A stretch of DNA of 39,392 nucleotides from an uncultured Verrucomicrobiota bacterium (GTDB taxonomy: Bacteria; Verrucomicrobiota; Kiritimatiellia; RFP12; UBA1067), in assembly GCA_945834475.1 (NCBI GenBank), contig CAMAHK010000012.1, positions 1-39,392 of the forward strand, read 5' to 3'. The notes beneath the pieces were generated by a model, which did not search any database, was not told the origin of the DNA, and saw nothing but the letters and a program-made list of their open reading frames with translations. Each line of letters begins with the position of its first letter. The first letter of the stretch is position 1. The position numbers and the translations under genes are program-made. Below are positions 6,463 to 39,319 of this stretch, in pieces.

Positions 6463-6511
6463 ATTGTACCAAAGGAATCCCCTTCGGCTCAATCACACCA
6501 ATGGAGTATTG
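6463..6511 (-). promoter_or_regulatory. GH95 promoter: inverted-repeat operator plus -10
   Basis: Gene direction: CAATACTCCATTGGTGTGATTG (6490..6511) then TACAAT (6463..6468), 6 nt (GTGGGC), ATG. Core GTGAT lies 28 bp upstream of the -10 start. Confidence 0.6.
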
Positions 6512-6541
6512 CAGGGCCGACGAATGAAAGCGAAGAACCGC

Positions 6542-8800
6542 TTACTGCACCGCAACAGCGACTGGGCTGCCGTCGTAGCGGACCGTCTTCGAGCATGCGC
6601 CGCAGATGACACGGAACTCGCGCGTCTTCGCCATGCCGGAATAGGAACCGCGGCGCGCGCCGATCGTCAGCGTCTTCTTCGCGTCATCCCATTTTAGCGG
6701 AATCTCGCTGAACTCGCCCTTCTCGTACTGATAGCCGTCGCCAGCATCGTCGTACAGCGTGAACGATCCGTCCGCTCCAGGGAAGACCCTAATCTCGACA
6801 GCCGGATTCTTCACCTCGTCGACATACTGCATGACAGGACCCATCGGGACGATCGCGCCCGCCTTCGCGTAGAGCGGAATCGTGTCAAGCGAGACGTCCT
6901 CGGCAATCCACCTTCCGCCCTCGAAGACGCGTCCGTCGAAGAACGACGTCCATTTCGTCCCTGCCGGAAGATACACGCGCCTCTGGCCAGCGCGGTAGCG
7001 CACGACAGGCGCGGCCATCAGCTCGGTTCCGAAGAGGAACTGGTCCGAAACCTCCCACGTTCCGGGATCTGCGCGGTACTCTGCGAAGAGCGGGCGCATC
7101 ATCGTGCCGCCGTCCTTCGACACCCAGCGCGCGGTAGAGTAGAGATACGGCATGAAGCGGTAGCGGAGCTTCACTGCCTGAACCATCGCGTCGTACGCCG
7201 GCGTGCCCTTCTCGCCGAACTGCCATATCTCGCGCGGCGCGCCCGTGCCGTGGCTGCGGAAGATCGGATTAAACAGCGCATACTGCATCCAGCGAACGTT
7301 CAGCTCGATGAATTCGGGGCACTTGAGTATGCCGCCCGGGTATCCGCTGAAGTGCCACGGATGGAATCCGCCGATGTCGGTGTTGAAATTCGGATTGCCC
7401 GTGAGGCCGAAGCCGAGTCCTGCCGGAATCTGCTTCCTGAGCACCTCCCACTTCGAATCGACGTCACCCGACCATGTGTTCGCGCCGGTGCGCTGGAGCC
7501 CTGTGAAGCAGCTGCGCGTCATGATCGACACGCGGCGGCGTCCGTCCGGCTCGTCTGCGCGCTGGTGGTCGTAGATTCCGCCAACGGTCATGAGCGGAAA
7601 GAGGTTGCAGACGCGGCGGTAGCTGCCGAGGAAAGTCGGCGCGTCGAAGCTCTCCTTCGTGTGCGGCCAGTGGTCCGGCTCGGTGGAGTCCATCCACCAC
7701 GCGTCGATTCCGCAGTCAACGAGACGGCGCACGTACTTCCAGTAGAGATCGCGCGCGGCGGGGTTGAACGCGTCGTAGACAATCACGCCCTCGTCGCGCG
7801 GCCATGTCACGAAGTCCTTGAAGTACCAGCCGCGGTCCTTGAAGTCCTTGTTGGGCTTTGCGTTCGGACCGAAGTCAGGCCAGAACGAGATCATGAGCTT
7901 CGCATTGCGGTCGTGGACGGCCTTCACGCCCGCCTCGGGATTGTCCTTGAATCCGTCGGCGATGAAATCAAGCGCATTCCAGTTCTCGTTTCCGCCCCAG
8001 TACTGCCAGTCCTGCACGATGCAGTCCATCGGGATGTCGCGCTTTCGGTGCTCATCGACAATCTCCGCGAGCTGCGCCCAGCTTGTGTAGCGCTCGCGGC
8101 TCACATAGTAGCCGAGCGACCACTTCGGTAGCATCGGCACCTCACCGGAGAGCCAGCGTATCTGACGCACGACGCCATCCGAAGAGCCTCCGTACATGAA
8201 GTAGTAGTCGCTCGCGTCGCCTACCTCGCTCGTGTAGGACATGACTCCATTCAGCTCCTTGTATTCCGCGATGGACGAGTTGTCAATGAAGACTCCCCAT
8301 CCCTTGATGGACTGAAACACGGGAGAGTAGTCCTCGATGTTGTCCTGCAGAACCTTCTTCGTGATGCCGCGGCGGGAGATGGAATCCTCCTGCACGATGC
8401 CGAGTCCGTACACAGGCTCGTCGCCGTCCAGAAGCCACGCCTGGCGCACCGAGAAGCTGTTCTCGTCCGGATCGCCCTTCGCCCGCGGCGTGAAGGTCGT
8501 GTCCTCCTCTGCGAGAAGCGGAGTGCCGTCCGCCGCGGCAAATGCGACGCGCCCTTCCGCATCGACCGTGACGCGGAGCTTCGCCGAGGAATACGTCGCC
8601 GCACCGTCCTTTTCGGACTTCGCAACGGCCACCTTCTCAGGCTTTGCGGTGACGACATAGCTCTTCTCCGGCGACTTGCCGCCTTCCGGAATCTTGAGAA
8701 TCCTGACGATGTCGTCGCGCCAGAATTCGACCTTCACGTCCGTCGCGGCGCCTGCCGAGACGACTGCCGCGGTTACAACGGCCAACATTAGCGTCTTCAT
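6542..8800 (-). CDS. Secreted GH31-family alpha-glycosidase (alpha-xylosidase/alpha-glucosidase-like)
   Basis: Signal peptide MKTLMLAVVTAAVVSAGA; 'DAWWMDSTEPDHWPHT', 'PMDCIVQDWQYWG', C-terminal 'FTLYDDAGDGYQYEKGEF' typical of GH31. SD-like AGGAG upstream. Confidence 0.93.
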   Translation of the reverse strand: MKTLMLAVVTAAVVSAGAATDVKVEFWRDDIVRILKIPEGGKSPEKSYVVTAKPEKVAVAKSEKDGAATYSSAKLRVTVDAEGRVAFAAADGTPLLAEEDTTFTPRAKGDPDENSFSVRQAWLLDGDEPVYGLGIVQEDSISRRGITKKVLQDNIEDYSPVFQSIKGWGVFIDNSSIAEYKELNGVMSYTSEVGDASDYYFMYGGSSDGVVRQIRWLSGEVPMLPKWSLGYYVSRERYTSWAQLAEIVDEHRKRDIPMDCIVQDWQYWGGNENWNALDFIADGFKDNPEAGVKAVHDRNAKLMISFWPDFGPNAKPNKDFKDRGWYFKDFVTWPRDEGVIVYDAFNPAARDLYWKYVRRLVDCGIDAWWMDSTEPDHWPHTKESFDAPTFLGSYRRVCNLFPLMTVGGIYDHQRADEPDGRRRVSIMTRSCFTGLQRTGANTWSGDVDSKWEVLRKQIPAGLGFGLTGNPNFNTDIGGFHPWHFSGYPGGILKCPEFIELNVRWMQYALFNPIFRSHGTGAPREIWQFGEKGTPAYDAMVQAVKLRYRFMPYLYSTARWVSKDGGTMMRPLFAEYRADPGTWEVSDQFLFGTELMAAPVVRYRAGQRRVYLPAGTKWTSFFDGRVFEGGRWIAEDVSLDTIPLYAKAGAIVPMGPVMQYVDEVKNPAVEIRVFPGADGSFTLYDDAGDGYQYEKGEFSEIPLKWDDAKKTLTIGARRGSYSGMAKTREFRVICGACSKTVRYDGSPVAVAVQ

Positions 8801-8869: not shown

Positions 8870-8917
8870 AGTATATCAAAGACGTTCACCAAAGCGATAT
8901 CACACAAAGGTATGAGA
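8870..8917 (-). promoter_or_regulatory. GH31 promoter: inverted-repeat operator plus -10
   Basis: TCTCATACCTTTGTGTGATATCGC then TATACT (8870..8875); core GTGAT is 28 bp upstream of -10; SD-led 5'UTR. Confidence 0.6.
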
Positions 8918-11653
8918 CTACTTCTCGTGTCCTTCGCAGGAGAACCGGAAGTAGTCGACGTCTACATATCCGCCGGGAGATTTCGTCGGATAGCAGAATA
9001 TCGCAAAGCGCGAGCCCACGAACATGCGCGTCCAGTCGAAGCGCAAGGGGAAGCGCGTGCCGATTCGGCGCCACGTCTTTCGGTCGGGGCTCCAGTCCAT
9101 CTCGGCCCAGTCCTGTCCAGGGCGGAAATCCGTCCGTATGCGCAAGTAGACAATGTCGGACGAAAGCGGCACGGACTCCTTTTCCGAAACCTCGGCGCGC
9201 GGATTTCTGCGTCCTTCCTCGAACACGCTTTTCTCCTCGCTCATGACAAGCCGCTTCCTGCTGTTTTCGCAGACGACGGCAAGCACGGCGCTGTCGGACT
9301 GGAGCGCGGCAAGTCCGGCGCGGTCACCGTTCTTCATCTTCGAAACATCCATTCTGATTTCACCTTCGCACTGCGGACCTATCATGCGCTGCGTCAGCGT
9401 ATTGCGCGCAAGGAAAATGTTCGGCACAACCTTCCGCGCCTTGAGCCGCAGCCAGCCTGGGCGCTCCTCGAACGACCATGCGCCGTCGAGCGGATTGTGG
9501 TTCCACTGCCACCTGAGATCAAGCGTCTTCTTTCTGAATCCGTCCGATCCGACAATCCCGGAAAGCGACGGATACGGCTTGGTGAAATCGCTGGGAATCT
9601 TCCCCTCCCGGTTGCCGAGGATCGGCCATCCGTCTTTCCACGTCACGCCCATCAGACACGGGATCCTCCCGAGGCCGCCACGGTCCTGGAACATCATCGC
9701 GCGCCATTTTCCGTCCGGACACTGCACGACGGATCCCTGCCCCACGCCACCCCAGTTCTCGAACTCCGTCTCGAGTATGACCTTCTTCTCCCATTCGCCA
9801 TCAAGGGATTTCGAGCGATAGCACACCTCCCGCCTCGGATGGTTCGGCAGAAAGCAGGACACCATCATCAGGTAGTAGTATCCGTCCTTCTTGAAAGCGG
9901 CGGAGCCCTCGAGCAGCGCCGTCTCCTCCCCGCGCTCGAAGAGCTGCCGGTCAAGTCCGCCGGGCTTTGCGCCGGTCAGGTCTTCCTTCATCTCGGTGAC
10001 ACGCCCGGAGCCATGGAACACGTACACCCTTCCGTCGTCATCGAACACAAGCGAGCCGTCGTGCAGATACGGACCGCGGCTGAGAAGCCGCCACGGACCT
10101 TCGGGTCTGTCTGCGGTATACATGAAGCCGCCGACGTCGTTGACGATGAACCATGCGTAGAACTTCCCCTTGTGGTGGACGATCGACGTCGCCCACTGTC
10201 CGGCGCCGTATCCCGTCTTTCCGTTCTCGGCCTCGAACGAATACTCCGGCGAATCGATTCCGTCAAAGATATAGGACACGATCTCCCAGTGCACCATGTC
10301 CTTGGAACGCATCACCGGCGCGCCAGGCATGAAGTGCATCGTCGTCGTGACCATGTAGATGTAGTCTCCCGCGCGGCACATGCTCGGATCGGGACAGTCC
10401 GCCAGGATGACCGGGTTGCGGAACGTCGCGCTTTTCGGTGCCTTTCTCTTCGGGGCGTTCGCCCACTTCCTGAACAGCTGTGCGAAAGCCGCCCCGCAGC
10501 ATTCCTTCTCTCCGCCGAATCGCAGCTCGAACTTCCCCGTCTCAAGGTACTTCTTGACCTCGAAGAGAACGCGCGCATCCCCTGCGAGCGTGGACACGTT
10601 GCCAAGCTTTTCAATCGTGCCGATATACGCGCGCCCCCATTTTGACGACGACCCCGTTCCCCACGTGCCCCAGTTCTCCGGCACCCACTGCCCGAACTCG
10701 TTGTTCTTGCCCTTGCCGGGCTTTATCGGGCTCCAGTCCACTTCGGTAACCACAATCGGCGCAAAGTCCGCAACCGGCACAAGCTGGCGGAAGCGCGCAA
10801 GGAACTTCTCGACATCGGCGTTGTCGTCGTTCTGATCGTACCATCCCGGATAGGCATGCACGGCATAGCCGAGATTGCCGTCCCGCAGCGGATACTTCGC
10901 GTAGTCCTCGAAGTTTGACTGCCAATAGAGGCCCGGCGCGAGGATCGGCCCCTTGAAGCCCTTCGCGCGAATAACGTCTATCATGGGCTGCATGTATTCC
11001 GCAAGTGCGCTTTCGCGCGGCATCCCTTCGCGCGGCTCGATCTTTATCGGCTCGTTCTCCAGCTCGAAGAGGACGCGTCCGGCGAGCTTCTGCAGAACCT
11101 TGTTCGCAGCGAGATGCTCCCATTCCTTCAGCAGGTGCTTCTGGTAGTCGTCTCCGACCTTCGTGTCACCAGGCGTGTTGTACGACGGACGGATGATCAC
11201 GTAGAGCCCGTGCGCAACAGCGTTCGTCGTGACCGGGACGAGTACTTTCTCGACATAGCGGTCGTACTTCGACCAGTCGCAGGCGTAAAAGTGCGGCGCG
11301 TCCTTCGACGGTTTGAGATTGTCGTCCTGCGTCCACCATCCGTCGTCCGTGAGCCGCACCATGTTTACGTAGCACCCCTGCGAACGATCCGTCAGCGCCT
11401 TTGTCGTCTTGTCGTAGTACTCAAGCATGCGCGGAATGAGGTGGTCGCCGCTGCCCCATCCCCATTCGTTGTCGTTGAAATACGAGTTGATGGACTGCAT
11501 CACTCCGCCCATGCGCACGCAGTTCCCCCGGTCGTCGACGAAATGTCGCCCCTGCACGTGGATTGGCGGCAGCGGAGCGGCAAGCGCCGTGCAGTGCGCG
11601 CACTGCACGGCGGCGATTGTCGCTGCAATCACGAACCATGACTTAGATTTCAT
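8918..11653 (-). CDS. Secreted GH5-like / GH43 fusion (endo-glycanase plus arabinofuranosidase/xylosidase)
   Basis: N-terminal GH5-like barrel ('MGGVMQSINSY', 'LFELENEPIKIEP', 'VVTEVDWSP') joined to GH43 ('NPVILADCPDPSMCRAGDYIYMVTTTMHFMPG', 'LLEGSAAFKKDGYYYLMM') and a C-terminal beta-sandwich ('LRWQWNHNPLDGAWSFEERPGWLRLKA...ARNTLTQRMIGP'). Confidence 0.85.
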   Translation of the reverse strand: MKSKSWFVIAATIAAVQCAHCTALAAPLPPIHVQGRHFVDDRGNCVRMGGVMQSINSYFNDNEWGWGSGDHLIPRMLEYYDKTTKALTDRSQGCYVNMVRLTDDGWWTQDDNLKPSKDAPHFYACDWSKYDRYVEKVLVPVTTNAVAHGLYVIIRPSYNTPGDTKVGDDYQKHLLKEWEHLAANKVLQKLAGRVLFELENEPIKIEPREGMPRESALAEYMQPMIDVIRAKGFKGPILAPGLYWQSNFEDYAKYPLRDGNLGYAVHAYPGWYDQNDDNADVEKFLARFRQLVPVADFAPIVVTEVDWSPIKPGKGKNNEFGQWVPENWGTWGTGSSSKWGRAYIGTIEKLGNVSTLAGDARVLFEVKKYLETGKFELRFGGEKECCGAAFAQLFRKWANAPKRKAPKSATFRNPVILADCPDPSMCRAGDYIYMVTTTMHFMPGAPVMRSKDMVHWEIVSYIFDGIDSPEYSFEAENGKTGYGAGQWATSIVHHKGKFYAWFIVNDVGGFMYTADRPEGPWRLLSRGPYLHDGSLVFDDDGRVYVFHGSGRVTEMKEDLTGAKPGGLDRQLFERGEETALLEGSAAFKKDGYYYLMMVSCFLPNHPRREVCYRSKSLDGEWEKKVILETEFENWGGVGQGSVVQCPDGKWRAMMFQDRGGLGRIPCLMGVTWKDGWPILGNREGKIPSDFTKPYPSLSGIVGSDGFRKKTLDLRWQWNHNPLDGAWSFEERPGWLRLKARKVVPNIFLARNTLTQRMIGPQCEGEIRMDVSKMKNGDRAGLAALQSDSAVLAVVCENSRKRLVMSEEKSVFEEGRRNPRAEVSEKESVPLSSDIVYLRIRTDFRPGQDWAEMDWSPDRKTWRRIGTRFPLRFDWTRMFVGSRFAIFCYPTKSPGGYVDVDYFRFSCEGHEK

Positions 11654-11683: not shown

Positions 11684-14170
11684 TTACCTGCCGATCCTGA
11701 ACACGGTGAGGGAGAACGGCTCGACTTCGGAGGTGAAAGACGTCCCTCCGGCAAACGACGCCGTGGAAAGCTTCGTTGCACAGCGCGTCGGATTGCCGAG
11801 ATCGTTGACGACCTTCGGATCGCCGGAGAGAGACTCGATCTTGACCAATCCGGACGGAAGCCTTTCACCAAAGTCCACGGTGACCCTGCGGCGTCCATCC
11901 GCGTCAAGGTTGACGCATTTGACGATGTATTCGTTCGTCGACTCGTCCATTCCGCAGACGTGGTAGAACGTCCTCAGCGGCTTGCTCGCGACCTCGACGT
12001 CATCCCACAGTGCCTTGCCGTCGATCTTCGCGGACACCTTTCCTCCGCGAACCGAGACCGCGACGTCGTACCAACGCCCCTCCTCGACAGTGAACGGACA
12101 AGATGCCGATTCCGGTATTTCGTATCCTCCGCTCTGGAGAGCTGTGCGCGTATTGCCCCACCCGCCGATGTTCAGGGTAAGGCTGCGTTTTGTCTCGACG
12201 CAGAAGCGCAGCGTGAACCCCTCTCTTCCGGAAACCTTCCTCGCCCTGCACGTGAAGTCGTAGTCGCGCCATCCAGAATCTCCGAACGTGATCTCGCTGT
12301 CCCAGGTCGCCTCGCCGTTCTCCTGACGCATCGCTCCGTCGACCATGCGCCAGCGCGCGCCGGGTCCGCGCGGGCACTTCTCAATCTCGGGGAAGCCTTT
12401 GAAGAGCGTTCCTCCGTCCGCAGCAGTCACCTTGATGTCCTTGAACTCGGCAACGCTCGTCCACATGCTGAAGCCTACGGCACCCTTCGGCTTCGGATAG
12501 TTTTCAGCGCCTTCCGCCGCCGACGGACGGTACTTCGTCGGACGGTTCGCGGAGAACATCTTCTGCACGTAGTAGTTGGGAGTTCCGAACGACTTGAGGT
12601 TGTCGAACCAGATCAGGTCGGGCTTCCATCCGTTCCACCCCACCTTGTTGAAGAGCGGCGCGTAGCTCGTCATCTCGACGACGTCCGAGTTGCGCTCGAA
12701 TCCCGTCATCGCGACGGCCTCGCAGAGGGCGGAATGCAGGTTGTTCGCACGGTCCGGCTCATGCGCCGCGTATTCTCCGGCATAGACATGCGGCTTCCCG
12801 GCGCGCGCGTATTTGTCGTAGCGCGACTCCGTGTCGATCATCCAGTGCGGCTCGATGTAGTAATGCTCGTCGATGACATCGGCCGTCCTGTCCGTGAGGG
12901 TGCTCCACGCGAGCTCGAACTCCCTGCCGCCCGGCTGCGCGCCGGAGGAGGAGACGATTCGAATTTCGGGATGGCGCTTCCTTACGATTTCCGAGACTGC
13001 GAGATAGCGGTCGAGGAACACCTTGTCCCAGTTTTCGTTTCCGATTCCGACATACTTGAGGTTGAACGGCGCCGGATGCCCCATGTCGGCCCTGAGCTTC
13101 CCCCAGACGTTAGTCTCGGGATCTGCGTTCGCGAAGTCGATGAGGTCGCAGATGTTGTCCGCAAAGTATTCCATCGACTCCATCGGTGCGAACTTGGGCC
13201 CGCGGAACTGGCACGTGAGGCCTGCGATGCAGATGGGGAGCGGCTCCGCGCCGATATCCTCGGCAAGGCAGAAGTACTCGTAGTAGCCGAGCCCCATCGA
13301 CTGCCAGTACCCCCACGTGTTCCAGATCGTCTCGCGTCGCTCGAGCGCGCCGACGGTGCGCTTCCAGTCGAACCAGTGCTGGAAGTCGTGGCCCTCGGCG
13401 ATGCATCCGCCCGGGAATCGCAGGACGCCAGGCTTCATGTCCTTCAGCCACTGCACAAGGTCTTTGCGAAGTCCGTTCTTCCTCCCGTTGAACGTGTCCT
13501 GCGGATACAGTGACACCTGCTCGATTTCGACCGCACCGGGCGCATCGAGGAGAATCGAGAAGGTGCCGTCCGAGACCGTCTCACGCGGCTCGAACACAAA
13601 CGCATGTCGCTTCCACTCGGGGAGCTCGAAGTCGACGGACTCCTTTGCCGGCGCGACACTCATGTCGCTATTGGCGACCTTCGCCTCGCAGAGGACGCGT
13701 CCGCCGCGTTCGAGGACGCACCTCAAGCCGCCCCTGTAGCCGTCGAGTCCGCGCGCATAGAACGTGAGGTCGTATTTCTTCCCCGCCTCCACGCTGACGC
13801 CGCCGTAGCCGAAGTTCTTCACGCCGCATCCATCGCCAGCGCCAAAGCACTCGATGCGCAGGTGGCGCGCCGTCGCGGGATGCACGGGGCGTCCGTCCTG
13901 AAGCGATACACGTGCCATCGCGTCTCCGCGGAAGTCGGTCTGCCAACCCTCGAGATCCTTCGTCTTCCAGTCGAATCCGCGGTTCTCGATCAGCTCTGGA
14001 TACACCCCGCCGTCCGCCGCATGGTTGATGTCCTCGAAGAAGATTCCGTACAGCGTCTTCGGAACGTCGTGTCCCTTCGCGCCGGGATCGATTGCGATCC
14101 GGACGCCTCCAAATGCCGTGGCCGCGATTCCCGCTGCCGCCAATGCCGTCAAAGTCGTTTTCATTTTCAT
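11684..14170 (-). CDS. Secreted GH51-family alpha-L-arabinofuranosidase
   Basis: ORF 11684..14188; signal peptide from MKMKTTLTALAAAGIAATAFG (MKMK at 14170; ATG at 14164 also possible). 'LYGIFFEDINHAADGGVYPELIENRGF', 'VGIGNENWDKVF', 'YAGEYAAHE'. Confidence 0.92.
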   Translation of the reverse strand: MKMKTTLTALAAAGIAATAFGGVRIAIDPGAKGHDVPKTLYGIFFEDINHAADGGVYPELIENRGFDWKTKDLEGWQTDFRGDAMARVSLQDGRPVHPATARHLRIECFGAGDGCGVKNFGYGGVSVEAGKKYDLTFYARGLDGYRGGLRCVLERGGRVLCEAKVANSDMSVAPAKESVDFELPEWKRHAFVFEPRETVSDGTFSILLDAPGAVEIEQVSLYPQDTFNGRKNGLRKDLVQWLKDMKPGVLRFPGGCIAEGHDFQHWFDWKRTVGALERRETIWNTWGYWQSMGLGYYEYFCLAEDIGAEPLPICIAGLTCQFRGPKFAPMESMEYFADNICDLIDFANADPETNVWGKLRADMGHPAPFNLKYVGIGNENWDKVFLDRYLAVSEIVRKRHPEIRIVSSSGAQPGGREFELAWSTLTDRTADVIDEHYYIEPHWMIDTESRYDKYARAGKPHVYAGEYAAHEPDRANNLHSALCEAVAMTGFERNSDVVEMTSYAPLFNKVGWNGWKPDLIWFDNLKSFGTPNYYVQKMFSANRPTKYRPSAAEGAENYPKPKGAVGFSMWTSVAEFKDIKVTAADGGTLFKGFPEIEKCPRGPGARWRMVDGAMRQENGEATWDSEITFGDSGWRDYDFTCRARKVSGREGFTLRFCVETKRSLTLNIGGWGNTRTALQSGGYEIPESASCPFTVEEGRWYDVAVSVRGGKVSAKIDGKALWDDVEVASKPLRTFYHVCGMDESTNEYIVKCVNLDADGRRRVTVDFGERLPSGLVKIESLSGDPKVVNDLGNPTRCATKLSTASFAGGTSFTSEVEPFSLTVFRIGR

Positions 14171-14187
14171 CCTGTTATTGTAAACCA

Positions 14188-17100
14188 TTACTGAACTATC
14201 ACTATCAGTCCACCGCGCCGCGCGATAGTTATGCTTTTGCCGTCAGCGGACTTTACGGACCGAAGGGGCAGCCCCTCCGGATCGGACACCGCCGATGCGA
14301 ATGCGCCCGTGATTCCCTCTGTCGCGCTCGCCACGACGACGGGGTTCAGCCCGACCAGCTTCTTCGCGTTCTTCACGACAATCTTCGCGTTCTTGCCGAT
14401 CACAAGAGCGCCGTCAACAGCAAGCGGAGCGATCATTCCGTCGTCGTTGACAGTGACGACCAAGGCGTCCGTAATTGTCGCTGCGCCGTTCGACAGCGTT
14501 CCGCCGCCATACACCTTCGCAAACTCGACCGGCCTTCCGTTAAGATTGAGCGACGCACCGCTTTCAAGCCTCAGCGATTCAGGGATCGTGGAGACTGAAT
14601 CGGACGAGAACCACTTCTGCTGCAGATAGTCGCGCATTGTCGCAAGCTCGCCTTCCGCAAGCGCCTTGTCGAACACGAACGCTTCGGCGATGAATCCGGA
14701 CGAAGAGCTACTGTAGAACTTTCTGTAGCCGAGGTATATCTTGTTGTCGGTCCTTTCGCTCGCAGCGGAAATCGTCTCGGACGCGGACGTTCCAAGATTG
14801 CCTGTGTCGGAATCCCAGCAATGCGCCTGCACTAGCATGTCCTTAATGCCCATATCCCAAATCTGCCAGCGCTCGTTGTTGGAATGACTGCTCGCCGTGA
14901 TCGATCCCTTTCCGAGTTCTCTGAATTTGGCTGTCTCGATCCCTTCGTCCCAGTAGCTCAGGCGCCATCCCCAGTAGCAGTCTTCAATGCGGAACCCATT
15001 GTTGTCATCGGTTGTGCTTTCGATTCCGAGCGGCATCATCTCGTTATAATACTCGACCGTCTCCGCCCCGCTTTCGTCGTATTTGTGGAACGTGTTGCAC
15101 TGATGGCGCGAGACGACCATAATCGTCTTGTCGGCGGAGCTTGCGATTCCCGTCTCGTCCTTCGATGCGAAACCGTAGGCGTTCGTGAAGGCAATGACAG
15201 GCAGCCCGTTCAGGCTCCACTTCGCCGGATCGTACGACGGCTGGCGCGACTGACCCGGCTCTGCAAGAGCGAGGTCGAGATCGACGCTCGAGGAACCCTT
15301 GTTGTCGATTCCGTTCACGGTGCCGTCATCCGCAACCGTCAGCGACGCACGGTCCGACGCGTCGTACCAGCCGACAGCGGACTTCGCGATGACAGGAGCC
15401 GCGGCGAAGCCGGCAAGCGTCGCTGCGCCGGAGACGGAGAGAATCGTCTCTGCGGAATTGAACTCGCCGAGTTTCTCAAGCCTGCCTTCGTATGGTACTG
15501 TCACGACAGTGGAAGCAGTAGGCAGGACATCGTAAAGAAGAACACCGTCCTTATTGCGCGTCTCCCAGTTTGCGGCATTGGCGACATCACCATCACCAGA
15601 TTCGTTCGTCCAGACCGCCGAAACAGGAGTCGTGTCTGCGGCGATGACGATGATCGTTCCGTTCTGCTCGGAATATGTGCCGGCCTCCTTCTCAATGCCA
15701 CCAACCTTGTATGCCAGGACATGGACCGTCTGTTCGTTCAAGTCGAGCGACGCACCGTTCGCGACGGATATCTCCTTCAGCGGAGTCGTGGCCGTGGAGG
15801 CGATCGTTCCAGTTATCTTCAGCGTCCCCTGTTCCACGACGAATCCACGCCTAAGATCGACAGAACCTGTCAGTTTGCCTGTTCCTGATCCGATCTTTCT
15901 GAAGAAGCCGGAGCCGGCAAGCGCCGAAGCGATTTTGCTCTCTTTGCTCTTCTCTGAACAGCTGGAGGTGTCAAGGACCGCGCCACGTGCGAGGACGTTC
16001 ACGGTAAGCCCTTCGGAAGCATCAAAGCAGTCACTCTCATTTCCGTTGGGTTTGTAAGTGCCTCCGTTCCAGTTGAAGGTGGACGGACCTCTCACGCTGT
16101 GGATCTTGCCGACGTTCAGCACGCCTCCGTTAAAGTTAACGACGCCGCCATGCTCGGAAGAACTGCCCTCCTCGCGGTTGAAGTCGAGCCACCACGTGCA
16201 GGAGACAGTTCCTCCGTCGATTGTCAAAGTTCCGAAGCCCTTGTTGCCGACGTAGATGTCATTGCCGGCCTGAAGCGTGCCGGACACGACATGCACAACA
16301 CCTGTGGCAGAGGACTCCTGGGCGATATGGAGATTACCGGACGATATGAACGAGCTGTCTTTTCCCTCGACCGTTACGGTCGCGAATCCAGACGCCCCTA
16401 CAGTGAAGCGGGATTTGCTCGTGAGTTTTCCGCCGTTTTTGATTTCGATCTTCGAATTGCCTTGCCCCCACTGCGACATATTGGATTCGCCGAGATTCAA
16501 CTCCATCTCAGCTCCAGCTCCGTCGATCGTCAGTCCGTTGTACTTGCCGCCATTCGACGCGCAATTGCCCATGATGAGCTTGCCTGCAGACACCTTTCCA
16601 CCAGTGACCTTCATAATGCAGTTGCGGTTGTCCGCATATCCCGCACCTATAGACAGTTCATCGATGACATCGAGCGAACCGCCCGTCATGTTGAAAACTG
16701 CACCAAGGTCGCTTGCAGCATTCTCGACAAAATCTCCAAAATCATTCAGCGTGACGCCGTATCCAACCCTAAACTTCTTGGCCGCAAACGACTCGCCGAC
16801 AGAGAGCGCGGCTGGCGTCTCGCTGTTTATCGCGAAAAAGTCGCAGTGTGTTGGATAGCCGCCTGTAAACGTCGGGAACCACGCAGCTCCATCGGTAATG
16901 GACTTTCCGCTCTCCGTCGCATTCCACAGACGCTTCGTCTCGTCAACGAATATCGCCTCCGAGCATACGAGCTCGGTCTCCACCCAGTCGGCGTGATCCC
17001 AGCCGTTATCTCCATTCGGATCGACTACGAGGTCTATTTTCTGGATTCCGGCCAGATTGATTGTCTCGCTGCTGTCGCTTGTTTGCGTAAGAGAAACCGC

Positions 17101-17520: not shown

Positions 17521-17571
17521 ATCATACCATTTTGCCCAGAGAAAGGAATATCACTCAAAGGTGTGACATTC
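17521..17571 (-). promoter_or_regulatory. Promoter of the 1101-aa protein: inverted-repeat operator plus -10
   Basis: GAATGTCACACCTTTGAGTGATATTC (17546..17571), the most symmetric copy, then TATGAT (17521..17526); core GTGAT is 28 bp upstream of -10. Confidence 0.65.
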
Positions 17572-17613: not shown

Positions 17614-19677
17614 ATGCAAGCTACCGCCCTTTTGATTGCGGCCCTCTCGCTTACGGACGTCGCGCGTATGTCGCGCGACGAGGCGGAGTTCGGACGCGAA
17701 GTGGTCGCGACCGGTGTCGTCACGGTAGCCACGGAATGGCGCACCAACTCGGGCGTCGCAGCAGACCCGGAAAACCCCAACGGACGCGGCGTCTACTTCC
17801 TCGGCGAGACGCAGATGCTGACAAGTTCGCGCCTCGAAGGCTCAGACAGGTTGAAGCAAGGCGATGTCGTGGAGATCCGAGGCAGGACAGCTTGCCTCTC
17901 CTTCGCCCCCGGAATCAAGGCCGACGTCATCAGCAAGATAGGCGAGGCCTCTCTTCCCCCGGCCCCTCACACACGCCTGGCCGACCTCGGATGGGGAGCG
18001 ATGGACAACACCCGCGTGACACTCCGCGGCGTACTCGTGAAATCCGTAGTAGCTCCACGCAGAGTCGGGGAGACGGAGTCCGGAACGGCACTCCTCCTCA
18101 ACACGCCCGACGGACGCTTCGTCGCCAGAGTCCCCGGCGGACCCGACCACTGGACGCATGCTGTCGACGCCGAGCTTGAGATATCGGGATGCGCCATGAG
18201 CCTCTTCAACCTCCGCGCAGAGTTCCTCGGGGTGAGGCTTGAGGTTGGCGATGCCTCGGACATAAAGGTGGCGAAAAAAGCCCCTTCGTCGCTCTTCGAC
18301 ATCCCTGAGACCAAACTTTCCAAAATCCTCTCGTACTCGCCGACTCCGTACGACGGACACGCCAAGAAGGTTCGCGGAACGGTCACGTTCGTTGCGTCTG
18401 ATGACGTGTTCTTCATGCAGGACGGGGGACGCGGAATCAAGGTGGCGTGCAGCGGAAAGCACGAGGCCAAGGTCGGCGACGCCGTAGAGGTAGCCGGCTT
18501 CCCTGTTTCCATCGGCGGCTTCGGGGAACTGCACGGAGCCGTATGCAGAACAACAGGAAGGAACACACTGCCCGAGCCGGTGGATGTAAAGATGGCGCAT
18601 TACAGCCTCTGGCCGGTAGGTCGTTTCGACGGAGGACTCAAGGACTTCGGCTGGCGCCGCGTGCGCTTCACCGCGCGCGTCATCTCCGCCACGCCCGCGC
18701 ACGGCGGATTCGACCTGCTGCTTTCGGACGACGACAGAACCTGCCCCGCGTTTCTGCGCGGAGAGCTGCCGGACTCGTTCAGCAACGCCAAGGAGATGAT
18801 GCCGCTTGCAAACATAACGGCCGTCGCCGAGATATCCCTTGCGGAATCGACCCCGCTCGCGCGCATGCCCGAAGTCAGCGCTGTCAGATTTAACATCTGC
18901 GATCCGAAAGACATCGCGTTCGTCAGCGATCCGGAATGGCAGTCGAGGCGCAGGGAATCGCTCTTGTCCGACCTCCTCACGATCCTCAGCGTCGCCGCGC
19001 TCGCGCTCGCCGCGATTGTCGTCTCCCGTCTCGTCGTCTCCAACAGGCGCAGAGGCAGGCTCGAGGCCGTCGCGGCGGAACGCAAGCGGATGGCAAGCGA
19101 CCTGCACGACTCCATCGAGCAGAACCTCACCGCGGCGCGGATGCTCATGCGCACCTCTCTCAGGCTGTCGCCGGAAACACCCCCATGCGTGGCCGAGTCC
19201 GTCGAAAGCGCCGCCGAAATACTCGACCGCGCCAAAGCCGAGATAAGAGAGACAATATTCAACCTCCGCTCGGACGACAATTTCGACAAGGACGCGAAGA
19301 CTGTCTTCGCCGAATTCGCGAAACGGCTTTCCGCCCACGGGCTCTTCAGGGTGCGCAACATGCTGCGCGGCATTCCGGCGCGCATTCCTGCGCAACTCCT
19401 CACAACGATACTGCATCTTATCGAGGAGGCGCACACGAACGCCGTCAAGCACGGCGGCGCCAGGAACTTCATCCTCGTCGCAGATCCGGTTCCCGGCGGC
19501 TTCACCATTCGGCTGCTCAACGACGGCGAACCGTTCGACGCGACGTCCGCGCCCGGTCCGGAATCTGGCCACTACGGGCTCGTTGGCATGCGAGAGCGCG
19601 CAAAGCGCGCTGGCGTACGGATATTCTGGGAAACGCGCAAGCGCTGGAATGTTTTTAGAATCGAGGTGAAGACATGA
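17614..19677 (+). CDS. Membrane sensor histidine kinase (HisKA_3/HATPase_c) with OB-fold-like extracytoplasmic region
   Basis: TM segment 'LLTILSVAALALAAIVVSRLVV'; 'ERKRMASDLHDSIEQNLTAARMLM' phosphoacceptor; HATPase 'IEEAHTNAVKHGGA', 'GHYGLVGMRERAKRAG'. N-terminal repeats 'GRGVYFLGETQMLTSS' and 'DVFFMQDGGRGIKVACSGKHEAKVGDAVEVAGF' look OB-fold-like. Confidence 0.85.
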   Translation: MQATALLIAALSLTDVARMSRDEAEFGREVVATGVVTVATEWRTNSGVAADPENPNGRGVYFLGETQMLTSSRLEGSDRLKQGDVVEIRGRTACLSFAPGIKADVISKIGEASLPPAPHTRLADLGWGAMDNTRVTLRGVLVKSVVAPRRVGETESGTALLLNTPDGRFVARVPGGPDHWTHAVDAELEISGCAMSLFNLRAEFLGVRLEVGDASDIKVAKKAPSSLFDIPETKLSKILSYSPTPYDGHAKKVRGTVTFVASDDVFFMQDGGRGIKVACSGKHEAKVGDAVEVAGFPVSIGGFGELHGAVCRTTGRNTLPEPVDVKMAHYSLWPVGRFDGGLKDFGWRRVRFTARVISATPAHGGFDLLLSDDDRTCPAFLRGELPDSFSNAKEMMPLANITAVAEISLAESTPLARMPEVSAVRFNICDPKDIAFVSDPEWQSRRRESLLSDLLTILSVAALALAAIVVSRLVVSNRRRGRLEAVAAERKRMASDLHDSIEQNLTAARMLMRTSLRLSPETPPCVAESVESAAEILDRAKAEIRETIFNLRSDDNFDKDAKTVFAEFAKRLSAHGLFRVRNMLRGIPARIPAQLLTTILHLIEEAHTNAVKHGGARNFILVADPVPGGFTIRLLNDGEPFDATSAPGPESGHYGLVGMRERAKRAGVRIFWETRKRWNVFRIEVKT

Positions 19678-20288
19678 TAAGACTCGTCATTGCCGACGAC
19701 CACGCGGTCGTGAGGATGGGACTAAGGTTCGTCCTGAAGATCAACCCAGACATCGAAGTCGTCGCCGAGGCGGCTGATGGAGACGAGGCCATGAAGGCCG
19801 TGCGCGAGCACAATCCAGACATTCTCCTTCTTGACATACGAATGCCTGGACGCGACGGACTCTCCGCGCTTGACGAGATTCTCGCCGCTTTCCCGAAGCT
19901 CAAGGTGCTGATGCTCTCGACATCCGATGCTGAGGAGGACATCTTCCGCTCAATCGAGGCCGGAGCGCGCGGCTACGTCGTGAAGGACAACCGTCCGGAA
20001 ATCATCGTCGACGCCGTCAACAAGGTGGCAGCCGGAGAGACGTACATGACGGACCGGGTGCGGAGAATCTACGAAATGCGCAAGACTCTCCCCGACCTCA
20101 CGACGCGCGAACTGGAGCTCCTGCGCCTCACGGTGCGCGGACTCACCAACAAGGACATATCGGCGGTTCTCGAGATCAGCGTGGACACCGTCAAGGCGCA
20201 CCTTCGGCACGTCTTCGCGAAGATGGACGTCGCAACGCGTGCCGAGGCGGTCGCGGAGGCGATCCGCCGAGGCCTCGCCTCAAGCTGA
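19674..20288 (+). CDS. LuxR/NarL-family response regulator
   Basis: Receiver 'IADDHAVVRMGL...DILLLDIRMPGRDGL...VVKDN' plus HTH 'LTTRELELLRLTVRGLTNKDISAVLEISVDTVKAHLRHVFAKMDV'. ATGA overlap with the kinase stop. Confidence 0.95.
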   Translation: MIRLVIADDHAVVRMGLRFVLKINPDIEVVAEAADGDEAMKAVREHNPDILLLDIRMPGRDGLSALDEILAAFPKLKVLMLSTSDAEEDIFRSIEAGARGYVVKDNRPEIIVDAVNKVAAGETYMTDRVRRIYEMRKTLPDLTTRELELLRLTVRGLTNKDISAVLEISVDTVKAHLRHVFAKMDVATRAEAVAEAIRRGLASS

Positions 20289-25318: not shown

Positions 25319-25368
25319 ATTCTACCATATTCCCCTTCGGAACGGCGATTACCCGAAGTGGTTACGCC
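25319..25368 (-). promoter_or_regulatory. GH10-GH43 promoter: inverted-repeat operator plus -10
   Basis: GGCGTAACCACTTCGGGTAATCGCC (25344..25368) then TAGAAT (25319..25324), 6 nt (TCACGT), ATG. Core GTAAT is 28 bp upstream of -10. Confidence 0.6.
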
Positions 25369-27062: not shown

Positions 27063-27110
27063 ATTCTACCAAACGCCATGCGTCTTTCGCCATTCCCCCA
27101 ATGGGCTAGG
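27063..27110 (-). promoter_or_regulatory. GH43 promoter: inverted-repeat operator plus -10
   Basis: CCTAGCCCATTGGGGGAATG (27091..27110) then TAGAAT (27063..27068), 7 nt (GGAGCCT), ATG. Core GGAAT is 28 bp upstream of -10. Confidence 0.55.
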
Positions 27111-30200: not shown

Positions 30201-30442
30201 TTGCCGTCCGGATAGCTTTCCCACTTCAGATCCCACGGATTCGGCACCTCCAGGGCATCGTTCCAGATCTTGTCGGTCATCCAGTTTGCGGGGTCGACAA
30301 GCGACGTCGTCGTTCCCTTCCACATGAAGTGACGCCGACCTTCCGGAACCGTTTCCTCGGCATTCACCTGCGAGAACGTCGCGACACAGGCAGCAGAAAG
30401 TGCAACTGCACAGAATTGAGATGCTTTGCGTGTTTTAACCAT
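27263..30442 (-). CDS. Large secreted beta-repeat protein with LamG-like module
   Basis: Signal peptide-like N-terminus ('FCAVALSAACVATFSQVNAEE'); many 'VxVSGGxVxVxGxLxVG' repeats; 'VSSVWTNASGDGNAANAANW', 'AKAWYDFDDSASVTME...VAEAMMFDKALSDEELAAVREYLHTKWF' parallel the 1101-aa protein; ends VVSKGFCVLIR*. Confidence 0.7.
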   Translation of the reverse strand: MVKTRKASQFCAVALSAACVATFSQVNAEETVPEGRRHFMWKGTTTSLVDPANWMTDKIWNDALEVPNPWDLKWESYPDGKIYENLLPTTGDSVEATSMREAVLGEGEAFHVRNMSIDADGAVAKLTIDGGTFTADGEVVAGQLNRTSEVTLKDGSFIAGNLVLGHWGNAAWGDPAHGILKVEGGTVTTTGADWTGSLTLGRQDVGAKGEVLVSGGTVNVDGGRLSVGFSELTEKIRAASSRVAVSGGIVRVRGELDVGSADKSGGFLEVSGGEVSVGSSLRVGQGVGSVGFVELTGGTVTSGAELRVGAGEGAKAEVLIAGGALVNNSGRISFGHGNDAQTYVEINGGAVSNLVEHIYIGGGIPAAEWNEYVETGNADTYTKFVMNDGTVYAKQIIFAGAWTSADTVINGGLLEADEAIFIGEYDMVADRRTTLTVNGGTLFAPRVVKTYSGKKPTTVLNINGGTFKAKTDTENYFENCGDLVITGDGLGFDTDGHAVVTHNHDGATYSGNGGITKKGQGTLTLRGTYALTGKIKVEAGTLVLPENQTIYCEGTEVADGATLELNGSTIIPVTKKIVSSVWTNASGDGNAANAANWRSHIKYFLEDGSEKEDLSAELDGVMPAADSDVTIPASSAVRPDMSGLTVRSVTLVATSDVSLRGDCTVPEIVKSAKAWYDFDDSASVTMEGGIPVGVANKGTAKDALDLVLFYPEESRRKPAYGLSSHYGRDVMSFTNSYGFVSKNAAGIVGDADRTLVAVSLRIRNTYPAFNGDGTPKEGEYEQQMFPLGIEKVGGNWQSGEFRLGQWAGSSNLDYDDSTVKRADWTTQALQGLRNIDPDEYAIWAMSSAEKTVSGSVMTESSGVENATSVTVGSNGTSEEAKLFVGMRQLYDSPSAGEVAEAMMFDKALSDEELAAVREYLHTKWFTPFDGTTVPSNIALENRARIDLGGGSWAFDKIMGAGTIANGDVTITEKVGAGLVVGGSLTLAEGATMDLSALLAQPLNTEVTLLTAAEIVRAPTFVGGENANRKVRILPMTDDAGRIVAYRGTVVSKGFCVLIR

Positions 30443-30476: not shown

Positions 30477-30523
30477 AGTATAACACTCCTCCATCTGTAC
30501 GGGCTATAGCCTTATTAGGCGAT
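30477..30523 (-). promoter_or_regulatory. Promoter of the 1059-aa protein: inverted-repeat operator plus -10
   Basis: ATCGCCTAATAAGGCTATAG (30504..30523) then TATACT (30477..30482); core GCTAT is 28 bp upstream of -10; SD-like GAGGT before ATG. Confidence 0.5.
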
Positions 30524-33372: not shown

Positions 33373-33418
33373 ATTGTAGCATGACCAAGGCAAGCCTTCA
33401 ATAACCCCTTTGGGGAGG
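33373..33418 (-). promoter_or_regulatory. GH127 promoter: inverted-repeat operator plus -10
   Basis: CCTCCCCAAAGGGGTTATTG (33399..33418) then TACAAT (33373..33378), 6 nt (ACGGGC), ATG. Core GTTAT is 27 bp upstream of -10. Confidence 0.5.
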
Positions 33419-33443: not shown

Positions 33444-33587
33444 GGGTCGCATTTTGTGCTATAATCTCGAGCGATGAGAGCGTCACTCCTACTCCTTGCG
33501 CTTGCCGCCGCGATCTCTGCTGGAGCCGTTCCCGAAAATCTGACGGTTTCGGGAACAGTCATCTATTCCCAGGCATGGAATCTCTTC
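33444..33587 (+). repeat. 144-bp duplication, copy B (intact histidine kinase 2)
   Basis: See 30529..30672; offset is a constant 2915 bp. Confidence 0.95.
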
Positions 33588-34847
33588 TTCCTGAAGACGG
33601 AGACGGAGAACCTTTTCGTGGCGACACGACAGGGACGCCCCGAACTCGCCGCCGGGGACGATGTAAAGGTCACGGGGTTCCCCGCTCAACGTCTCGGGCG
33701 ACTGGAGATCGAATCGGCCACCTACGAAAAACTCGGGACGTCCTCTCCTCTGCCGGACGCCATTTCCATTACCCCCGCCGCGCTTCGCCGTCTTCTCACC
33801 CCGGGAGGACCGGACGACCATTACGGTGCGCGCGTGCGCTTCACCGCATCTGCGACCGAATTCCGCGTCCGTGAATGGGGCTTCAGCGAAGTCGAACTCT
33901 CCTTCGGCGGCGAAAAGATCGTCGCCTCGATGCAAGGGCGTTTCCCCGCCGCCATGCAGGAGAAGCTCGAGCTCCTGCCCCGCGTCGAAGTCGAGGGAAT
34001 TCTCAAGTTCATTGACGTCGAGGTGCCGCCTGGCGAATCTCCTCTCTACGAACTCCGTCTCACCTCTCCCGATGACGTGACGATCGTCCCCGATGCGACC
34101 TTCCGTCGGCGCTGCCTTCTCCTTCAGGCGCGCAAGCTCATCTCCCTCACACCTTATGTCCTCCTTCTCGTCGTCGCCGGCCTGACTGTCAAGCTCTACC
34201 GCGCCCATCGCGCCAAGGACCGGCTCCAGGCCGTCATCGACGAACGGCGTCGGATGGCGGCGGACCTCCATGACTCGATCGAACAGCACCTCGCCGGCGC
34301 GCGACTCTACCTCGATAGCCTTCTTCCGGACGACGGTTCGCCCGCCCCAAGGGAACTGAAGGCGGCCGAGCTGGCGCGTGACATCCTCGTCGCCGCGAAA
34401 CGCGAGATCCGCGAGACGATCTGGAATCTCCGCCTCGACGAGCTCACCGACCAGGCGCCGCGCGACGTACTCCTCTCCCTCGTCGGCAAGCTGAACGCGC
34501 CGGGGCACGTTCAGGTGTCGACCGTCCTTCGGAACCTTCCCGAAGCCCTTCCCGAGCGGCTCTTTTCGGATCTCCTCTACATCATCCAAGAGGCCGTCAC
34601 CAACGCCATCAAACACGGCCGGGCAACCCGGCTCGTTCTCACGTCGGACACGCTTCGCACGGCCGACGGGTTCGCTCTGAGGATCCTCAACAACGGCACC
34701 CCCTTCGATCCGAACCGCGCGCTCGGTCCCGAAGCGGGACATTACGGGCTCTCCGGCATGCGCGAACGCGCGCGCCGGAACGGCATCGAGATCTCCTGGT
34801 TTTCGTCATCCCACATCACCTCAGTTCGCTTGGAGGTCCATCTATGA
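33474..34847 (+). CDS. Membrane sensor histidine kinase (HisKA_3/HATPase_c) with OB-fold-like sensor
   Basis: Signal peptide MRASLLLLALAAAISAGA; 'AWNLFFLKTETENLFVATRQGRPELAAGDDVKVTGFP'; TM 'LTPYVLLLVVAGLTVKLY'; 'ERRRMAADLHDSIEQHLAGARLYL'; 'IQEAVTNAIKHGRA', 'GHYGLSGMRERARRNG'. TATAAT is 8 nt before the ATG. Confidence 0.9.
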   Translation: MRASLLLLALAAAISAGAVPENLTVSGTVIYSQAWNLFFLKTETENLFVATRQGRPELAAGDDVKVTGFPAQRLGRLEIESATYEKLGTSSPLPDAISITPAALRRLLTPGGPDDHYGARVRFTASATEFRVREWGFSEVELSFGGEKIVASMQGRFPAAMQEKLELLPRVEVEGILKFIDVEVPPGESPLYELRLTSPDDVTIVPDATFRRRCLLLQARKLISLTPYVLLLVVAGLTVKLYRAHRAKDRLQAVIDERRRMAADLHDSIEQHLAGARLYLDSLLPDDGSPAPRELKAAELARDILVAAKREIRETIWNLRLDELTDQAPRDVLLSLVGKLNAPGHVQVSTVLRNLPEALPERLFSDLLYIIQEAVTNAIKHGRATRLVLTSDTLRTADGFALRILNNGTPFDPNRALGPEAGHYGLSGMRERARRNGIEISWFSSSHITSVRLEVHL

Positions 34848-35458
34848 TTCGCGTCGCCGTCATCGACGATCACAGCGTCGTTCTCGCCGGACTCAAATAC
34901 GTCCTTTCCCTACATGACGACATGGATGTCATCGCCACCTCGGAGACAGCCGATGACATCTGCACCTTCTACAAGACGCAGCGTCCCGACGTCCTCCTCC
35001 TCGACATCCGCATGCCAGGCACCAGCGGACTCGACGCCCTCGCGACCCTTCGGAAGCAGTATCCCGACGTCCGCGTTGCGATGCTGACGACAAGCGATCT
35101 CGAGGAAGACGTCTATCGCTCATTCAACCTCGGCGCCAACGGATACATCCCCAAGGATGCGCGTCCCGCCGAAATTGCCAACGCCATCCGCACGATTGCC
35201 GCCGGCGGAAACTACATGCCCGAGGCGATCCGCCGCATCTACGAGACGCGCAAATCCGTGAAAGGCCTCACCGAACGCGAAGTCGCCATCCTGCGCTACA
35301 TCGCGAAGGGACTCTCCTATCACGAAATCGGCAAGCAGTACAACATCAGCGTCAACACGGTGAAGATCCACGTGCGTCACATCTTCGAGAAGCTGGACGT
35401 CAGCGACCGCACCGAAGCCGTCACCCTCGCCATCGCCCGCGGCATCATCGAAGGCTGA
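34844..35458 (+). CDS. LuxR/NarL-family response regulator
   Basis: 'VIDDHSVVLAGL...DVLLLDIRMPGTSGL...IPKDARP' and HTH 'LTEREVAILRYIAKGLSYHEIGKQYNISVNTVKIHVRHIFEKLDV'; ATGA overlap with the kinase. Confidence 0.95.
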   Translation: MIRVAVIDDHSVVLAGLKYVLSLHDDMDVIATSETADDICTFYKTQRPDVLLLDIRMPGTSGLDALATLRKQYPDVRVAMLTTSDLEEDVYRSFNLGANGYIPKDARPAEIANAIRTIAAGGNYMPEAIRRIYETRKSVKGLTEREVAILRYIAKGLSYHEIGKQYNISVNTVKIHVRHIFEKLDVSDRTEAVTLAIARGIIEG

Positions 35459-35546: not shown

Positions 35547-37106
35547 TCATTTGAAGGCGACACCGTCAAAATCGGCGAATCCGCCCGCCACTTGCGTCGA
35601 ATACATGAAGATGCCGAAACGATAACCCGTGAAATGAGGCGCGGTGTAGACGAGCGGTACCTTATTGCCAAGCGTCTGCCAGCTCTTGCCGTCCAGCGAG
35701 TAGGAAAAGGCGCCTTCGTCCACCCCTGGCGGATTGCCCCAGTAGAAGTTCTCTCGTTTCCGGCGGAAATCGCCTTCGGCCTTCAGGTAGATGACCCGTG
35801 CGTTCTTCGGCAACGCGACACGCGCCACCTCGGCACCGGGCTTTCCGTCCTTAGCCTGCCGGAGCACGAGGGCGAGTCCGTCGTTTTCGCGCGTCACCGC
35901 CGCTTCGGCGTAGTCGCGCTGGAAAAGCGTCAGTCCCGCGCGATCGCCGACCTTGAGATGCGTCGGGTCGAGCTTCGTCAGCGCCGAGCAGACTGGTCCC
36001 CAGGTGCGTTGCGTCAGCGTATTGCGGGCGGTTGCGAGATCGGCGTCGAGGCGGTCGGTGGAAAGGCGGAGCCAGCCTTTGCGCGCAGTGAGCGACCGAA
36101 GGGACTCGACAGGATTGTGGTTCCACTGCCATTCCTTGCGAAGCGACGGACCCGTAAACGGATCGGACGCAATGCAGCTTGGAATCCCGGCGCACCGCAG
36201 CAGGTTCGCAGTCTCAATGACAGGCCAGTCGTCCACCCAGGTCGCGCGGTGGATGTAGGGACACCGCCCCACGGCGCCGCGGTCGCCGAAGAAATACGCG
36301 TACCACTCGCCATCGGGCGCTTCAATCAGCGATCCCTGCGCGATGCCCTGGAACTGGAAGATGACGCGGCCTTCCCAGGGGCCCTTGCGCGTGCGCGAAC
36401 GGTGCATCACCGCCGCACGGCCCTTCTCCCCCCAGCTGATGTTGACGACGTAGTACCAGCCGTTACGCTTGAAGACCTGCGTGCCCTCGCCGAGCCCGGC
36501 CTTCTCGATGCAGTCATTCACCTTCGGGATGACAATCTCGCCGCCGTCGACGAAACCGGACAGGTCGCTCTTCATCTCCGTCAGCCGCACCTTGAACCCT
36601 TCGGGACTCCCCTGGCTCGCATAAACATAGATGCGCCCCTCATCGAAGAAGATCGAAGCATCGTATTGCGCCTTCGGCAGACGTGCAAACGTCCAGGGTT
36701 CGGACTCCGGATCGCGCGTCCGAAAAAGGTACGTCACATCGATCGCCGGATTGAGGCTGATGACATAGAAATAGCCATCCGCCTCATTGTAGCGGATCGA
36801 CGAGGCGTAGGTGCCCACGCCGTAGTCGTTCTCGCCGTTCTCCAGACGATCCTTGGGACGGTCCTCGGCCGTTTCGTAGCAATAGCTTGCGATCTTCCAG
36901 TCAACGAGATCCGTCGACACCATCACCGGAATGCCGGGATTGTAGTGCATCGTCGTCGAGACCATGTAGTACTTCGGTCCCTTCCGACAGATGGCGATAT
37001 CCGGAATGTCAGCCCAGACGGTCGGTTCCTGATGCGGAACCTCGAATCCGCCGCTCAACGCGGCGGAGATCGCTAGGCTGGCGGCGAACAACGGAGCGAA
37101 CAGCAT
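35547..37106 (-). CDS. Secreted GH43-family enzyme
   Basis: 'TVWADIPDIAICRKGPKYYMVSTTMHYNPGIPVMVSTDLVDW', 'GLGEGTQVFKRNGWYYVV', 'KEWQWNHNPVESLRSLTARKGWLRLST'. SD-like AAGGA; 8 bp after the upstream GH97 (operon). Confidence 0.92.
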   Translation of the reverse strand: MLFAPLFAASLAISAALSGGFEVPHQEPTVWADIPDIAICRKGPKYYMVSTTMHYNPGIPVMVSTDLVDWKIASYCYETAEDRPKDRLENGENDYGVGTYASSIRYNEADGYFYVISLNPAIDVTYLFRTRDPESEPWTFARLPKAQYDASIFFDEGRIYVYASQGSPEGFKVRLTEMKSDLSGFVDGGEIVIPKVNDCIEKAGLGEGTQVFKRNGWYYVVNISWGEKGRAAVMHRSRTRKGPWEGRVIFQFQGIAQGSLIEAPDGEWYAYFFGDRGAVGRCPYIHRATWVDDWPVIETANLLRCAGIPSCIASDPFTGPSLRKEWQWNHNPVESLRSLTARKGWLRLSTDRLDADLATARNTLTQRTWGPVCSALTKLDPTHLKVGDRAGLTLFQRDYAEAAVTRENDGLALVLRQAKDGKPGAEVARVALPKNARVIYLKAEGDFRRKRENFYWGNPPGVDEGAFSYSLDGKSWQTLGNKVPLVYTAPHFTGYRFGIFMYSTQVAGGFADFDGVAFK

Positions 37107-39265: not shown

Positions 39266-39271
39266 GCCGAT

Positions 39272-39319
39272 ATTCTAGCACGGGAACCCTCCCCCGCACC
39301 ACTACCCCGCAGGGTGGTG
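39272..39319 (-). promoter_or_regulatory. GH97-GH43 operon promoter: inverted-repeat operator plus -10
   Basis: CACCACCCTGCGGGGTAGTGGTG (39297..39319) then TAGAAT (39272..39277), 6 nt (ATCGGC), ATG. Core GTAGT is 28 bp upstream of -10. Confidence 0.55.

Follow-up and report, generated by a model that had tools for sequence, protein, structure and literature searches.

An inverted-repeat operator at a nearly fixed promoter position in a hemicellulose-degradation locus of an uncultured Kiritimatiellia bacterium and its predicted control by NarL/FixJ-type response regulators

The locus and its kinase/regulator pairs

The window analyzed here (39,392 nucleotides) is one whole contig (C12; CAMAHK010000012.1) of the draft genome GCA_945834475.1, which comprises 2.57 Mb in 134 contigs and belongs to an uncultured member of the Kiritimatiellia (UBA1067). 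Its minus strand carries a hemicellulose-degradation locus with genes for, in this order, GH2, GH97, GH95, GH31, GH5/GH43, GH51, an NPCBM protein, GH2, GH10-GH43, GH43, a 1059-aa protein, GH127, GH43, and GH97. Nine transcription units of this strand carry, at their starts, the motif given in a preliminary description of the sequence. Genes that follow within a few to a few tens of base pairs (e.g., 11684-14188, 8918-11653, and 35547-37106) presumably belong to the same units and would form operons with them. The plus strand holds two kinase/regulator pairs (17614-20288 and 33474-35458), which consist of the following genes:

17614..19677, plus strand: HK1, sensor histidine kinase (HisKA_3) with a long N-terminal region, one TM segment, and the phospho-acceptor motif DLHDS
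19674..20288, plus strand: RR1, NarL/FixJ-type response regulator (Response_reg and GerE), recognition helix VDTVKAHLRHVF
33474..34847, plus strand: HK2, sensor histidine kinase by its domain matches (HisKA_3, HATPase)
34844..35458, plus strand: RR2, NarL/FixJ-type response regulator, recognition helix VNTVKIHVRHIF, 47% identical to RR1

RR1 and RR2 both combine PF00072 with PF00196, the receiver-plus-GerE HTH architecture of NarL/FixJ regulators, and their closest solved chains are VraR and NarL. Each regulator gene is preceded and overlapped by a PF07730 kinase gene, i.e., it is paired with a HisKA_3 sensor. HK2 resembles HK1 in its long N-terminal region, the single membrane segment before the catalytic part, and the DLHDS motif. 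The N-terminal regions of both kinases are probably periplasmic. HK2 has a strong TGCTATAAT of its own. The 1059-aa protein (27263-30442) shows a weak, sub-cutoff match to PATR, the passenger-associated transport repeat of autotransporters.

Nine operators in one promoter slot

The preliminary description had quoted nine related sites upstream of minus-strand genes. All quoted sequences were found on this strand at the promoters named:

6492..6509, minus strand: operator ATACTCC-attg-GTGTGAT of the GH95 promoter; -10 TGGTACAAT at 6463-6471, 6 nt before the ATG; profile E=3.7e-6
8899..8916, minus strand: operator of the GH31 promoter; -10 TGATATACT at 8870-8878; profile E=0.0028
17550..17567, minus strand: operator GTCACAC-cttt-GAGTGAT of the promoter of the 1101-aa NPCBM protein; conserved in loci L017 and L018
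22534..22551, minus strand: operator of the GH2 promoter; -10 TGTTAGAAT at 22505-22513; profile E=2.0e-5
25348..25365, minus strand: operator of the GH10-GH43 promoter; -10 TGGTAGAAT at 25319-25327; profile E=2.5e-4
27092..27109, minus strand: operator of the GH43 promoter; -10 TGGTAGAAT at 27063-27071; profile E=6.2e-4
30506..30523, minus strand: operator ATCGCCT-aata-AGGCTAT of the promoter of the 1059-aa protein; -10 TGTTATACT at 30477-30485; PWM-weak, 6/7 self-complementary
33401..33418, minus strand: operator of the GH127 promoter; -10 TGCTACAAT at 33373-33381, one base nearer to the operator than elsewhere
39301..39318, minus strand: operator of the GH97 promoter; -10 TGCTAGAAT at 39272-39280; profile E=8.2e-4, 6/7 self-complementary

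Downstream of the 1101-aa NPCBM protein, the unit contains the GH51 and GH5/GH43 genes, and the GH97 promoter is followed by the GH43 gene at 35547-37106. Two operators lie in divergent regions shared by a target and a kinase gene, namely 17550-17567 between the gene of the 1101-aa protein and HK1, and 33401-33418 between the GH127 gene and HK2. Hence, these two could also influence the expression of the regulators themselves.

Alignment of the window sites on the -10 shows two inverted 7-bp arms separated by 4 bp. The inverted repeat had thus been described correctly, while the variable spacer of 3 to 5 bp is replaced by one of 4 bp. When all gaps and offsets were scanned, the mean self-complementarity was optimal for a gap of 4 and a right arm at -30; this value was reached in 0 of 500 shuffles. 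From 31 sites (15 of the own genome and 16 of relatives), the consensus is ATCaCCC-nTTn-GGGTrAT, where the terminal T of the right arm occurs in 31/31 sites and the preceding A in 28/31.

An extended -10 of the form TG-n-TAnnnT follows the operator in all nine window promoters. The distance from the start of GGGTrAT to the first hexamer base is 30 bp in eight promoters and 29 bp in GH127; the distances of 28 and 27 bp given previously for the core are the same values counted two bases further in. Assuming that transcription starts 7 nt after the hexamer, the operator is centered at -44.5 or -43.5. This fits a class II activator, whose site has its center in the range of about -41 to -44 at a fixed distance from the -10, and the earlier estimate of about -43 was right to within a base or two under the same assumption.

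A PWM was built from the nine window sites. It scored exactly nine window positions above 10 bits, and these are the nine of the preliminary description. When each site was left out in turn, the held-out site together with its -10 ranked 6 to 10 among the 78,784 window positions. Without the -10, the operators of the 1059-aa protein (rank 228) and of GH97 (rank 162) are weak.

Promoter elements and transcript starts

TATAAT is the hexamer of 49 of 69 background promoters but of only 3 of 19 regulated ones (p = 3e-5); the latter use TAGAAT or TACAAT instead. The lack of a TTGACA-like -35, which the preliminary description had pointed out, is real. It is not distinctive, as the best TTGACA match is 3.1/6 in regulated promoters vs 3.3/6 in a background of 69 extended -10 promoters from the same genome (p = 0.59). 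We therefore dropped it as a distinguishing mark and regard it as a trait of the promoter class, which is not evidence by itself. The operator position and the non-consensus -10 together favor class II activation.

Most regulated mRNAs are probably leaderless, given a first ATG at 6-7 nt after the hexamer in 13 of 19 promoters. An ATG within 10 nt of the hexamer was also found in about 30 of 69 background promoters, and leaderless transcripts seem to be common in this lineage. The distance from the hexamer end to the ATG is often 6-9 nt, e.g., for the hexamers at 6463-6468, 25319-25324, 33373-33378, and 39272-39277 of the window as well as in background promoters.

Occurrence outside the window and target genes

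The nine-site PWM was run on 954 kb of non-window sequence from this genome, where it had 6 matches of at least 24 bits; each of 10 column-permuted controls had 0. With the operator alone, the gap was 17 or 18 bp in 6 of the 10 cases of this sample that had TGnTAnAAT within 60 bp. The geometry is conserved in other species, where 9 of 10 operator/-10 pairs from 19 loci around related regulators have a gap of 17-18 bp (binomial p ~2e-12). A whole-genome profile returned 15 sites at E<=0.036, i.e., the nine of the window and six elsewhere (three on contig C4 and one each on C74, C88, and C36). As the profile was trained on the same 15 own-genome sites and its E-values are rough (short calibration), this list shows the absence of competing matches and is not an independent confirmation. 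Short tandem repeats of the GAATAATC / TGAATGG type on contigs C15, C30, and C33 of G000 are false matches of the motif pattern.

The motif is enriched genome-wide at promoters of glycoside hydrolases. Behind strong or moderate sites outside the window, 9 of 10 targets are glycoside hydrolases (GH97, GH31, GH97, GH95, GH43-GH51, GH31, GH30, GH2/GH43, and a GH88-like protein), and the tenth is a 251-aa protein without a Pfam match. For comparison, we listed the 25 commonest matches of 66 genes that have ordinary extended -10 promoters in this genome; no GH family appears in this list, and the proteins are gyrase, tRNA synthetases, SecA, elongation factors, and the like. In the 954-kb sample, the element was not found at housekeeping promoters. 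Equal frequency and random spacing at non-CAZyme promoters had been named beforehand as grounds for rejecting the motif; this check was run on the 954 kb and genome-wide, and neither scan gave grounds for rejection. A common operator at a fixed distance from the -10 and its reading as a regulon held up in the out-of-sample tests in the own genome, in other species, and on target genes.

In a relative, the divergent region L018:7290-7360 contains two operators side by side, which serve L-arabinose isomerase (araA) and GH95, respectively. The targets point to an arabinoxylan/hemicellulose regulon. This regulon is smaller than the whole carbohydrate repertoire, since no operator was detected at several GH43 and GH97 genes, including about half of the GH43 genes of the genome.

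The best-scoring site outside the window (L026:9395-9440, contig C4) precedes the 251-aa protein, with a short ORF (MKKIELFV) ahead. This protein may be new and carbohydrate-related, or its start may have been misread.

Association of operators with regulators

Homologues of RR1 at E<=1e-40 occur in 57 of 115 genomes of the family. Sites at E<=0.01 were found in 21 genomes (own genome counted), of which 20 also have an RR homologue (Fisher 1.4e-6), and 57 of the 58 strong sites (E<=0.01) outside the own genome are in RR-positive genomes. Thirteen of these 58 sites are located within 20 kb of an RR gene, compared to an upper-bound expectation of 4.5 (p = 7e-4); in several species, the distance is 0.7-2.7 kb. 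The densities of RR genes and of sites correlate with rho ~0.52, a value that also reflects, in part, the confounding effects of genome size and CAZyme content. The own genome encodes five strong RR homologues and more distant ones. Hence, the local pairs need not be the binders.

A sequence-blind inverted-repeat scan of 131 promoters from RR-linked loci peaked at gap 4, the right arm being at -28 to -30; the same scan of 70 background promoters gave no such peak. Many RR-linked loci have no GGGTrAT site. Promoters that lack it still peak, at -28, and their repeats group by the linked regulator. The helices EDGVKVRLKHAY and EITVKVRLSSVF pair with ACTACAC-tttc-GTGTATT and CATATAC-caty-GTATATT, and the helix VNSVKTHFRHIF pairs with ATCAyCC-n4-GGGTGAT or GGATGAT. 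Loci with a VKxR helix have the TAyAC-n4-GTrTA type in 10 of 13 cases and GGGTrAT in 0 of 13, where two of the 13 had no scorable promoter and all counts are raw tallies over loci that are not independent, with some orthologous promoters but at least five different genes for the TAyAC type. Across all loci, no non-VKxR locus reached the TAyAC criterion, and neither type was found at ENSVKM-type loci. Recognition helix and operator thus covary, in part phylogenetically, as the VKxR class represents few independent subfamilies.

A simpler rule, by which GGGTrAT would mark all loci with a related RR, was rejected, as the motif is absent from the ENSVKM-type and VKxR-type loci. Likewise, we do not assign the GTGTGAT-like sites (GH95, GH31, and 1101-aa protein) to RR1 and the GGG-like sites to RR2, because relatives with an RR1 orthologue show both kinds nearby.

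Predicted mechanism and alternative explanations

We consider it likely that the 7-4-7 repeat is an operator of NarL/FixJ-type response regulators which act as class II activators of the hemicellulose regulon, a prediction made from sequence. LuxR-type regulators of the locus had been put forward as binders already, and genome co-occurrence, proximity, and, above all, the covariation of helix and operator support a regulator of the LuxR/NarL type in this role. Dimeric regulators of the expanded family to which RR1 and RR2 belong would own the operator. The neighboring histidine kinase would sense a glycan signal in the periplasm and phosphorylate its regulator, and the dimer would then bind directly at about -44, next to RNA polymerase, and recruit or activate it. 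The promoters served would lack a useful -35 and have an extended -10 whose hexamer (TAGAAT or TACAAT) deviates from the consensus. As the outcome, secreted hemicellulases of families GH2, 10, 31, 43, 51, 95, 97, and 127 would be co-induced, many via leaderless transcripts. The sites with their geometry, the enrichment at GH promoters, the conservation, the association with regulators, and the helix/operator covariation are observed; direct binding, the phosphorelay, activation, the inducing glycan, and the regulator-to-promoter assignment are inferred parts of this scheme.

The operator could belong instead to an unlinked transcription factor of the LacI, GntR, CRP, or AraC type that controls hemicellulases globally, with the RR genes merely co-located with CAZyme clusters. 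Sites on the RR-free contigs C36 and C88 of the own genome agree with such a factor, and co-occurrence is confounded, since the numbers of RRs and of sites are both higher in CAZyme-rich genomes. However, the operator type changes with the recognition helix of the linked RR while the promoter geometry stays nearly constant, several species have sites only 0.7-2.7 kb from RR genes, and the arms resemble the NarL heptamer TACYYMT (PMC4886647). We therefore regard an unlinked factor as improbable. Control by a repressor that blocks the promoters until sugar is present is more doubtful still. Inverted repeats near promoters are common for repressors, but here the site lies upstream of the -35 region in a fixed phase and overlaps neither the -10 nor the start, and a -10 that deviates from those in the rest of the genome suits dependence on an activator.

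The fixed spacing to the -10 and the missing -35 would also fit a basal promoter element of the lineage, such as an unusual -35 or a UP-like element for an alternative sigma factor. Yet 70 other extended -10 promoters of the genome have neither the element nor a palindrome peak, and the sequence is an inverted repeat with 1 bp of freedom in spacing that varies with the RR class; we give this explanation very little weight. Chance alignment from loosely tuned consensus cores gains something from the degeneracy of the nine quoted cores and from the poor scores of the 1059-aa and GH97 operators on their own. It was refuted by all out-of-sample tests (954-kb sample, other species, whole genome, and target genes), and we consider its probability negligible.

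Comparison with known systems and significance

The predicted NarL/FixJ-type activation can be compared with known systems. The window regulators are of the same family as NarL/NarP, and NarL is among their closest solved structures. NarL heptamers are arranged as 7-2-7, whereas the arms found here form a 7-4-7 repeat, in which heptamers would abut (0 bp). The window recognition helix keeps Lys-188 of NarL and has Arg in place of Lys-192. The arms of the window, (y)ACCCnT, closely fit the NarL/NarP heptamer TACYYMT (PMC4886647). NarL/NarP control respiration genes, while the targets here are hemicellulases. In class II activation of the LuxR/TraR type, the lux box is located near -42.5. The similarity lies in an inverted repeat that overlaps the upstream edge of the -35 region and in the GerE-type HTH; the differences are a two-component regulator with a receiver domain and promoters with an extended -10 and no -35.

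The polysaccharide utilization loci of Bacteroidetes are controlled by hybrid two-component systems, i.e., single chains with AraC-type output, and the review describing them mentions neither NarL nor LuxR (PMC10766802). As predicted for the present locus, a local phosphorelay sensor controls a local CAZyme cluster, including those for arabinoxylan/xylan, but here the HisKA_3 kinase and the GerE/NarL-type regulator are encoded by separate genes. In Pontiella agarivorans (Kiritimatiellota), PF07730 kinases and PF00072 regulators next to GH and sulfatase clusters were noted as possible regulators, though no operator, promoter geometry, or target set was given (PMC10880615). In our limited literature search, this remark on gene neighborhood was the only one found on NarL-type CAZyme control in the lineage, and no described regulator-operator pair for its carbohydrate genes was found. 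The regulon itself is new; regulation by class II activation through a response regulator is known.

The lineage of this uncultured organism actively degrades fiber. From sequence alone, the motif and its promoter slot predict sets of jointly switched enzyme genes, unannotated ones among them, and connect each type of operator with a class of regulators. A genome can encode up to 14 strong RR homologues. The polysaccharide clusters of the genus may be run by an expanded family of NarL-type pairs, each with its own operator in one nearly fixed slot and with the helix residues as a code for operator and regulon; we judge the chances of this as about even. The regulon of the window is possibly one piece of such a larger, paralogue-by-paralogue operator code. 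As the many paralogous regulators differ in their helices and share nearly the same promoter geometry, they provide a natural data set on DNA choice by NarL-type helices.

Beside regulators with a VKVRL helix (L119:10645-10662, L120, L182-L185, L215, L216, and L218), a second class of operator was observed, TAyAC-n4-GTrTATT, whose right arm lies at -28 and which stands upstream of genes for large putative surface proteins. Of four TAyAC-type genes searched against Pfam, one encodes a LamG/InlB-repeat protein and the others had no match. Thus, the products controlled by this class may be large surface proteins and not enzymes.
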